The notes beneath the pieces were generated by a model, which did not search any database, was not told the origin of the DNA, and saw only the letters and a program-made list of their open reading frames with translations. From the NCBI GenBank assembly GCA_017859785.1, contig JAFMMJ010000018.1:1-33993 (forward strand): DNA of 33,993 nucleotides, read 5' to 3'. Below, one piece after another: positions 10,144-12,034 of this stretch. Numbering within the stretch: the first letter of the stretch is position 1; each line of letters opens with the position of its first letter. Origin of the DNA: Ilumatobacteraceae bacterium. Lineage in GTDB: Bacteria > Actinomycetota > Acidimicrobiia > Acidimicrobiales > Ilumatobacteraceae. The position numbers and the translations under genes were made by a program.

Positions 10144-10172
10144 TTGTGGAGCGGGCGAGCGCTCGCTAGTCT
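10144..10172 (+). promoter_or_regulatory. Promoter of the leuA leader transcript
   Basis: TTGTGG (10144-10149) and TAGTCT (10167-10172) are separated by 17 bp, the best -35/-10 pair seen in the window. The -10 ends 8 nt before the ATG of the leader peptide, so transcription should start at or just before that ATG. Confidence 0.6.
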
Positions 10173-10180
10173 CCCGGTCG

Positions 10181-10228
10181 ATGTCCACCGCCTTGCGTCT
10201 GCTTCCCCTTCTCGGGCTGCTTACGTAG
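10181..10228 (+). CDS. leuL: Leucine-rich leader peptide of leuA
   Basis: A 15-codon reading frame, MSTALRLLPLLGLLT, with 7 leucines, 6 of them within the ten codons 5-14 region that precede the stop. It starts 8 nt after a TAGTCT -10 hexamer and ends in TAG at the base of a GC hairpin, followed by a terminator and then leuA. Codons used are TTG, CTG, CTT and CTC. This layout is that of a ribosome-mediated attenuator: slow leucine decoding would hold the ribosome in the leader and change folding downstream. Leader peptides before leuA have been predicted in other actinobacteria. It has no ribosome binding site and is probably read from a leaderless transcript. The gene symbol is by function, not proven homology. 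Confidence 0.75.
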   Translation: MSTALRLLPLLGLLT

Positions 10229-10294
10229 GGCGGACGCGCACATACTCACGTCCGCCCGCCCCCACCGACCCGGTCAGGGGGCGGTTGTCGTTTT
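10228..10294 (+). terminator. leuA attenuator: leader hairpin plus intrinsic terminator
   Basis: First hairpin: GGGCGGACG (10228-10236) pairs with CGTCCGCCC (10249-10257), 9 bp with a 12 nt loop, starting at the leader stop codon. Second hairpin: CCGCCCCC (10256-10263) pairs with GGGGGCGG (10277-10284), 8 bp plus a small inner GAC/GTC helix, and is followed by TTGTCGTTTT (10285-10294), an intrinsic terminator. The 3' arm of the first overlaps the 5' arm of the second by 2 nt, and the first 3' arm can also pair with the terminator's 3' arm. The exact antiterminator could not be resolved by eye. Confidence 0.7.
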
Positions 10295-10342
10295 CGGCGC
10301 CGCTCCGACCGACCCCGAAGAACGCAACCCCAAGGAGACACC

Positions 10343-12034
10343 GTGCCACCGACACCAGCCACCCCACGCAAGATGCCGTTCGAGCGGTACTCGCCCCAGG
10401 TGCCCCTCATCCTCGAGGACCGGACCTGGCCGAACGTCATCATCGATCACGCCCCCACCTGGTGCTCGGTCGATCTCCGCGATGGCAACCAGGCGCTCAT
10501 CGACCCGATGGATCCCGTTCGCAAGCTCGCCATGTTCCGCGAGCTCGTCAAGATGGGCTTCACCGAGATCGAGGTCGGATTCCCATCGGCGAGCCAACCC
10601 GACTTCGACTTCGTCCGCCAGCTGATCACCGAGGATCTCATCCCCGACAACGTCGAGATCCAAGTGCTCGTGCAATGCCGCCGAGAACTCATCGAGCGCA
10701 CCTACGAGTGCCTCCGCGGAGCACCGCGGGCCATTGTTCACTTCTACAACTCGACCAATCCGCTGCAGCGCGAGGTCGTCTTCGGACTCGACAAAGCCGG
10801 CATCGTCGACATCGCGGTACAAGGGGCTCGCCTCTGCCGTGAACTCGAAGCCGACCTCGAGGGCACCGACATCCGCTACGAGTACTCCCCCGAGAGCTTC
10901 ACCCTCACCGAACCCGAATTCGCCATCGAGGTGTGCGAAGCGGTGATGGATGTCATCAAGCCGACTCCCGAGCGCCCGCTCATTCTGAACCTCCCCGCCA
11001 CCGTCGAGTGCTACAGCCCGAACGTCTACGGCGACGTCATCGAGTGGTTTGGCCGCACCATCCGCGACCGCGAGTCCGTCATCATCAGCCTCCATCCCCA
11101 CAACGACCGTGGCTGTGCCGTCGCAGCCGCCGAGTTCGGCGTCATGGCCGGCGCCGACCGGGTCGAGGGAACCCTCTTCGGTAACGGCGAGCGCACCGGC
11201 AACGTCGACATCGTCAACCTCGCCATGAACCTGTTCGTGAACGGGGTCGACCCCGAACTCGACATCAGCGATATCGACGCTCTGCGGCGCACCGCCGAGT
11301 ACTGCAACCGGCTGCCCGTGCACCCCCGACACCCCTATGTGGGCGACCTCGTCTACACAGCGTTCTCCGGCTCGCATCAGGACGCCATCAAGAAGGGTTT
11401 CGCCGCCCTGCCCTCCGACTACGACCAGTGGGGAGTCCCGTATCTGCCCATCGACCCGAAGCACGTCGGACGCACCTACGAAGCCGTCATCCGCGTCAAC
11501 TCGCAATCCGGTAAGGGCGGTGTCGCCTATGTGATGAAGGAGGAGTACGGCTACGACCTGCCCCGACGCCTGCAGATCGAGTTCTCCAAGACCATCCAGC
11601 ACATCACCGAGGACTCGGGCACCGAGATCTCGCCCGCGATCATGTGGGACGCTTTCTCCACCGAGTACCTCCCGAGCGAGCCGAACATGCGCCTGCGAAG
11701 CCACGAGCTGCACACCAACACCACCGACGGCCGCGGTCGAACCACCATCAGCGCCCAACTCGAGGTCGACGGCTCAGCGGTCACCATTCGAGGTGAGGGC
11801 GACGGACCCGTCGAGGCTTTCGTCAACGGCCTGCGCGCCGAATGGCCCGGCGACTTCGACGTGCTCGACTACTCCGAGCACGCCATCGGACGCGGCTCCG
11901 ACGCCGAAGCCGTCGCCTATGTGGAGAGCTCGTCGGGCAACGAGGTCCGCTGGGGCATTGGCACCGATCCGAATATCACCACCGCCTCCCTGCGCGCGGT
12001 GCTGTCGGCCTTCGAACGGCAACGACGGGGCTGA
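10343..12034 (+). CDS. leuA: 2-isopropylmalate synthase
   Basis: First committed enzyme of leucine synthesis, condensing acetyl-CoA with 2-ketoisovalerate. The 563 residues belong to the LeuA type common in actinobacteria, with the signature [13 protein letters not shown] (44-56), metal site HPHNDRG (251-257) and GNGERTGN (280-287). The catalytic TIM barrel is followed by a linker and a C-terminal LeuA dimer/regulatory domain from about 440 ([14 protein letters not shown]), where leucine feedback normally acts. GTG 10343 has AAGGAG (10332-10337) 5 nt upstream. The gene lies behind a leucine leader peptide and terminator, so both attenuation and feedback inhibition are likely. Citramalate or homocitrate synthase are less likely given the leader and leu context. 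Confidence 0.96.

Follow-up and report, generated by a model that had tools for sequence, protein, structure and literature searches.

Transcription of leuA in an uncultured Ilumatobacteraceae bacterium is likely to be controlled by a leucine-responsive attenuator with a leaderless, leucine-rich leader peptide, followed by a hairpin that begins at the peptide's stop codon (P1) and by a second, terminator-like hairpin (T). The element lies in the window, that is, the whole 33,993-nt stretch of DNA analysed here, which comes from a 1.96-Mb genome assembly that is 98.8% complete. A preliminary description of positions 10144-10345 had noted a promoter, a 15-codon peptide with seven leucines, a hairpin at its stop codon, a second hairpin, an AAGGAG and leuA, and this layout was reproduced from the sequence (Table 1). 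The leader, its codon choice, P1, T and their order and geometry are derived from sequence comparison and folding prediction.

Table 1. Coordinates of the proposed attenuator, its surroundings and related leaders
Feature	Position	Strand	Remarks
-35-like hexamer, TTGTGG	10144..10149	+	weak match; 17-nt spacer to -10 box
-10 box, TAGTCT (TAnnnT)	10167..10172	+	gap of 8 nt to leader ATG
Leader peptide ORF, MSTALRLLPLLGLLT and stop	10181..10228	+	15 codons, 7 Leu; ATG at 10181; stop TAG at 10226-10228
Hairpin P1	10228..10257	+	predicted fold; 9 bp plus one inner pair; 5' arm from last base of stop codon; proposed antiterminator
Hairpin T, terminator-like stem	10256..10284	+	predicted fold; 8-bp outer stem CCGCCCCC/GGGGGCGG plus 4 inner pairs
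U-rich tail, TTGTCGTTTT	10285..10294	+	interrupted; directly 3' of T
Shine-Dalgarno of leuA, AAGGAG	10332..10337	+	read from sequence
leuA, 2-isopropylmalate synthase, 563 aa	10343..12034	+	profile matches; start codon GTG; predicted regulated gene
Divergent DEAD-box RNA helicase gene	8781-10106	minus	adjoins leuA; under cut-offs of all 11 families listed for the helicase
ilvB leader in the same genome, ...GLVVLIR and stop, with two hairpins	G000 contig C3:4675-4784 (L193, L272)	minus	covariance model and scan
cimA (citramalate synthase) leader in the same genome, ...ARIIIIR and stop	G000 contig C13, 5' of 14531-16090 (L281)	minus	layout scan
Leaders of the second type	upstream of leuA in L078, L083, L086, L087, L089, L093, L099, L100, L102-L105 and L108		11 found by a pattern search; L089 and L099 recognised by eye

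The identity of leuA is well supported by profile scores of 844.9 bits for NF002991 (cut-off 455) and 795.4 bits for TIGR00970 (cut-off 697.4). The nearest named relatives include metagenome bins of Ilumatobacteraceae and Acidimicrobiaceae, and the best of them (Actinomycetota, L112) has 95% LeuA identity. The short gap between the -10 box and the leader ATG places the predicted transcription start at or next to that ATG, and with the 5' end there a Shine-Dalgarno sequence for the leader has no space. Translation of the peptide as a leaderless message, as suggested in the preliminary description, is thus still predicted from the position of the -10 box, but such a leader is not the unusual arrangement it was taken for: leuL1, leuL2 and ilvL of Streptomyces lividans (PMC8079986) and the ilvB leader of Corynebacterium diphtheriae (PMC5784534) are described as leaderless, and the ilvBNC leader of C. 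glutamicum is treated as such (PMC11857589). A generic sigma-70 pattern scan called no promoter at the window leader, because the -10 box fits only the looser TAnnnT pattern, and a generic terminator scan did not call T in the window, because GC interrupts its U-tract; both promoter and terminator therefore rest on comparison. A 12-nt palindrome, GCGAGCGCTCGC, at positions 10155-10166 between the -35 and -10 elements was not seen in the 95%-identity relative, and is possibly an operator, or a chance occurrence.

For the comparison, 190 leuA upstream regions were assembled: the window's own, 80 taken from named contigs and 109 further ones belonging to its GTDB order, Acidimicrobiales. Two of these (L047 and L160) had no upstream sequence, and the remaining 188 were scanned for a leader ORF with at least three Leu among its last seven codons, for a hairpin at its stop codon and for a second one that carries a U-rich tail. 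For the order sample, 243 of 248 genomes had any LeuA match, and only the long LeuA form was followed, in part of those genomes. The layout was found in 171 of the 188 regions, comprising all 79 from named contigs and 92 of the 109 from the order, the window among them. The two samples overlap, and when regions were joined by an exact shared 60-mer the layout was present in 139 of 156 groups. When the upstream 300 nt of the window were dinucleotide-shuffled 1000 times the layout never arose, and 600 shuffles of relatives produced it once; its presence in the window exceeds chance. The scan did not find it in 17 of the 188 regions; one region missed by the stricter scan (L074) has a leader ending LLLT-stop, a weaker P1 and a T.

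Codon and promoter counts were made on 171 elements, with three (L119, L120 and L124) left out for a wrong ORF and two loci of the second leader type described below (L087 and L102) included. Leu occupies the second, third and fourth codons before the stop in 171, 169 and 168 of these elements, counts that are biased by the search, since at least three Leu codons were used to find the elements; in the window the fourth codon before the stop is Gly, where nearly all relatives have Leu. A TAnnnT box stands 4-9 nt 5' of an in-frame start in 109 of the 171 elements, compared to 1.9% at displaced anchors, with 7 nt as the commonest gap, and leaderless leader mRNAs are predicted for these 109; in 55 of the 171 there was no TAnnnT box within 14 nt.

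Both hairpins are likewise shared. The structure set consisted of 91 of 172 elements at less than 78% identity, with L119, L120, L124, L087 and L102 corrected. P1 is present in all 91, at an offset of 0-4 nt relative to the stop codon's first base (offsets of 0-6 nt were searched), and all 91 have a T with a U-rich tail containing 5-10 T in the 12 bases that follow, at least five T in 12 bases being itself a criterion of the search. When P1 and T were aligned, 87.8% of pair cells held standard pairs; sliding the partner strand by 1-3 columns lowered this to 42-51%. Double-sided changes occurred in 171 cells, where shuffles gave 40.9 and none of 500 reached the observed count, and they involved 18 of 23 pairs; the columns of T were placed from single-sequence folds, so the covariation counts for T lean towards structure. 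RNAalifold run unguided recovered P1 and missed T, because the alignment splits T. The earlier proposal had been staked on the Leu codons and stems recurring in relatives; both are conserved in the leuA upstream regions, which decides the sequence half of that question in its favor.

In the window itself, the 165-nt leader folds well for its composition, with 1 of 200 dinucleotide shuffles folding as well or better (z -3.2). P1 and T overlap there by 2 nt, the outermost 5' bases of T (10256-10257) also belonging to P1, and the fold of the window alone has a further hairpin inside the leader ORF. Rfam covariance models, among them Leu_leader, gave no match anywhere in the window above gathering score; six matches at 10050-10450 had E values of 0.55-3.8, all far under the gathering scores. 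The loop region of P1 (about 10238-10248 in the window) reads CATA in 36 of the 91 non-redundant elements, which looks like more than chance for GC-rich sequence. The possibility that this loop pairs with T or with the last codons of the leader was considered and rejected, as no consistent complement was seen by eye. Pairing of the Leu codons with an AGGAGG of T, visible by eye in relatives and absent from the window, was dropped uncounted.

In the proposed model, a ribosome would begin translation at the very 5' end of the growing transcript, as predicted for leaderless initiation. With ample Leu-tRNA, the ribosome would pass the Leu codons and reach the stop, where it would melt P1, because the 5' arm of P1 begins at the stop, and T would be free to terminate. 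When Leu-tRNA is short, the ribosome would stall at the Leu codons, P1 would fold alongside it, and polymerase would read into leuA. The preliminary description had left the antiterminator unidentified; no further conserved hairpin emerged, but the antiterminator is probably P1 itself, and we infer that P1 weakens T. In the window, P1 takes two G-C pairs at the base of T, which can explain such weakening. In relatives with no shared base, the effect would have to be a physical one, and P1 at the foot of T may hinder closure of T in the exit channel of the polymerase.

Folding with a masked ribosome, at equilibrium and with either a tight or a wide 12-nt footprint, was applied to the 91 leuA elements and to 28 elements from ilvB. 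With the tight footprint, the 91 elements had a mean P1 probability of 0.97 when the A site held codon -4 or -3 and of 0.96 for codon -2; it fell to 0.68 at the final codon, which is non-regulatory, and to 0.26 once the ribosome had reached the stop. The wide footprint gave 0.97 near the beginning of the run, 0.54 for codon -2 and 0.00 for the stop. The mean probability of T was 0.93-0.97 in every ribosome state for both sets, and no ribosome position tested in this equilibrium folding removed T on average. Folding around a ribosome footprint, as had been proposed earlier, thus gave a response of P1 to ribosome position but left T on average unchanged, and in these models only P1 of the two hairpins clearly depends on that position. 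The window shows some response in T, its four outer pairs having a probability of 0.55 with the ribosome on codon -4 and P1 formed, versus 0.89 at the stop. Across the 91 elements, moving the ribosome to the stop raises the probability of the outer T pairs by more than 0.2 in only 12 and reduces it by more than 0.2 in 3. The two hairpins share bases in 18 of the 91 and abut in 27; in the other 46 a gap of 1-6 nt lies between them. A classical 2:3 antiterminator was also sought and rejected as a candidate: only 26 of the 91 elements have a segment from the 3' arm of P1 to the loop of T whose fold is more stable than the average for mononucleotide shuffles of that segment, and the window's segment scores 0.0 kcal/mol, with no structure. 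No conserved hairpin between the 3' arm of P1 and the 5' arm of T was found in the 91 elements. The constancy of T at equilibrium, together with the lack of a conserved 2:3 antiterminator, means that an exclusive-pairing switch is invisible in most members.

These results bear directly on an alternative in which the role of P1 is reversed. P1 would then be a pause or pro-termination hairpin that acts after ribosome release, and a stalled ribosome would mask it, freeing its 3' arm to form a 2:3 antiterminator with the 5' arm of T. Such an arrangement follows the classical E. coli-type scheme, the Leu codons do lie directly beside P1, and the wide footprint at codon -2 lowers P1 to 0.54; T nevertheless stays at about 0.96 with P1 masked, and we consider this reading unlikely.

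Less probable again is a translational switch, in which the ribosome on the leader would control access to the leuA start and T would be a background terminator. The precedent is the LEU element of Actinobacteria (Seliverstov 2005, PMC1262725), which resembles the present element in having a Leu-rich leader ORF directly 5' of leuA, and differs in that a pseudoknot or alternative hairpin pairs the Leu codons with the leuA Shine-Dalgarno sequence, in place of two hairpins of which the second is terminator-like. Leader mutations at leuA of S. coelicolor are cited there as reported to be inconsistent with classical attenuation, which speaks against the attenuator proposed here. The order also contains leaders that in part fit a translational scheme: 13 of the 188 leuA regions have a leader of another form (for example, MSFLLDLRLLSPAA and stop), with no terminator layout found by the scan. 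Their peptides end ...FLL.LRLL.PAA or LRLT.PV[AT] before the stop, a hairpin spans the stop codon, and in 6 of 11 folds examined by eye (L087, L093, L102, L104, L105 and L108) the Leu run pairs with the Shine-Dalgarno region of leuA. This second type thus resembles the LEU element, and the predicted folds suggest that the order holds both transcriptional and translational versions of the leuA leader; in three further regions (L088, L110 and L111) the scans found neither. In the minimum-energy fold of the window, however, the leuA Shine-Dalgarno region pairs with the leader start and not with the Leu codons, and all 91 non-redundant elements of the two-hairpin form retain a terminator-like hairpin; translational control of the window's leuA by this route therefore appears quite improbable. 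Separately, a helicase-domain protein has been proposed as a candidate binder of the LEU element (PMC1262725), and the divergent gene beside leuA in the window likewise encodes a helicase.

The strongest functional evidence for the attenuator, at the level of sequence, is the match between leader codons and pathway product. In scans of other genes of the order, all based on exact gene starts, the layout was found with Val/Leu/Ile codons at 28 of 30 ilvB loci and with Ile codons at 3 of 29 cimA loci, the genome of the window being included in both. Twelve control scans, in which the gene or the codons were changed, found at most one match each: Leu codons at leuS (0/25); Thr, Leu and Val/Ile/Leu codons at thrS (0/30, 0/30 and 1/30); Thr and Leu codons at cimA (0/29 each); Thr and Trp codons at ilvB (1/30 and 0/30); Trp and Val/Ile/Leu codons at trpE (0/30 and 1/30); and Val/Ile/Leu and Trp codons at ilvD (0/30 each). 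The loci scanned were 30 of 36 family matches for ilvB, 30 of 34 for cimA (one of them, L304 at a contig end, unused), 30 of 40 for thrS, 30 of 37 for trpE and 30 of 41 for ilvD; for leuS, 25 of 30 loci were used, the match of the other five beginning within the gene, and the sample did not include the window's own leuS. The matches at ilvB and cimA, together with the nearly empty control scans, argue that the leader codons match the product of the pathway. The layout is mostly or wholly missing at cimA, ilvD and leuS in the order, and so is not general to branched-chain genes. No candidate for ilvD (dihydroxy-acid dehydratase, TIGR00110) was detected in the genome of the window, though ilvB, cimA and leuA are there; this may be an assembly gap. 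The attenuation reading of the preliminary description is accordingly supported by conservation, by covariation in P1 and T and by product-matched codons. The same three lines of evidence make it scarcely credible that the element is a chance ORF beside an ordinary terminator of the upstream gene: GC-rich leaders do give chance ORFs and hairpins, and the leader frame is open 5' of its ATG back to 9659, but the upstream gene is divergent and so needs no terminator here, and the conservation is judged to refute this reading.

A covariance model of the element matched both the leuA and the ilvB leader in the window's own genome (ilvB with E 0.026). Across the phylum, 60 of the 296 genomes had a match with an E value no higher than 0.01, namely 20 in the order (the window's included), 4 more in the class and 36 in other classes. 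Inspection of 34 of the 73 phylum matches plus the 2 from the window's genome gave 36 places, of which 15 lie before ilvB, 10 before leuA (7 of the short form and 3 of the long), 5 before leuS, 2 before cimA and 1 before leuB, and 3 are false or without an assigned gene. Most of these downstream names are presumptive, having been read from motifs in the protein sequence; eight were checked by profile, with the partial leuS of L214 just under the cut-off. The leuS places, in other classes of the phylum (L214, L215, L221, L223 and L230), have mostly Leu codons. At L235:510-620, an Ile-rich leader (...ALRRVIIIP and stop) with two hairpins precedes a gene for 3-isopropylmalate dehydrogenase, an odd match, since the codons are for Ile and the gene is a leucine gene.

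In the leu and trp attenuators of E. coli, a leader with codons for the product amino acid and its own Shine-Dalgarno sequence is followed by overlapping 1:2, 2:3 and 3:4 stems and an intrinsic terminator before the structural gene. Neither the overlapping stems nor a leader Shine-Dalgarno sequence was found in the leuA element here. Attenuation sites in C. glutamicum have reportedly been described by Neshat and others. A closer parallel is the "fast" attenuator of C. glutamicum ilvBNC (the ilvB-II motif of Corynebacterium; PMC11857589, PMC10272879), which likewise has a leaderless short ORF with branched-chain codons and an antiterminator directly 5' of the terminator with minimal overlap. 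The adjacent hairpins of ilvBNC share only three bases, and mutations at the base of its terminator raise expression (PMC11857589). The predicted weakening of the outer pairs of T in the window is in the manner of this three-base overlap, and the 2-nt overlap in the window matches the C. glutamicum-type adjacency of the two hairpins. This is not general, however: the C. glutamicum models include base sharing between antiterminator and terminator, whereas P1 shares bases of T in only 18 of 91 leuA elements. The model of PMC11857589 also has a third, anti-antiterminator hairpin and a hairpin over much of the uORF, whereas P1 begins only at the stop. A leuA leader peptide has been reported in C. 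glutamicum as well (PMC4046766). The S. lividans leaders include leaderless Leu and branched-chain peptides, of which leuL2, upstream of leuS, has a hairpin and then a run of uridines after it; the leuA leader of that species, unlike the layout of the window, is said to have no typical Rho-independent terminator (PMC8079986). Leaderless leucine and branched-chain leaders are therefore already in print, and the layout here is a variation on known attenuators. A search of the open-access literature, judged mostly by title, found no report of the two-hairpin layout in Acidimicrobiales.

A broader reading, which we offer tentatively and hold to be rather less likely than its negation, is that the element is a minimal attenuator chassis, in which the antiterminator would need no base shared with T and P1 would block T from its foot. 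The same body, fitted with Leu, Val/Leu/Ile or Ile codons, would then serve before leuA, ilvB, cimA, leuS and leuB, in Acidimicrobiales and at the model matches in other classes. Whatever the fate of this extension, the attenuator proposed for leuA supplies a candidate antiterminator where the first reading of the region had left a gap: a single hairpin, placed with respect to the stop codon, that would read the position of the ribosome directly. If P1 works with no base sharing, then antitermination would need no mutually exclusive pairing, and searches based on exclusive pairing would miss such elements. The layout would also provide a simple two-hairpin test system for the effect of an upstream hairpin on termination, and it is present at most sampled leuA and ilvB loci of an order known largely from metagenomes.
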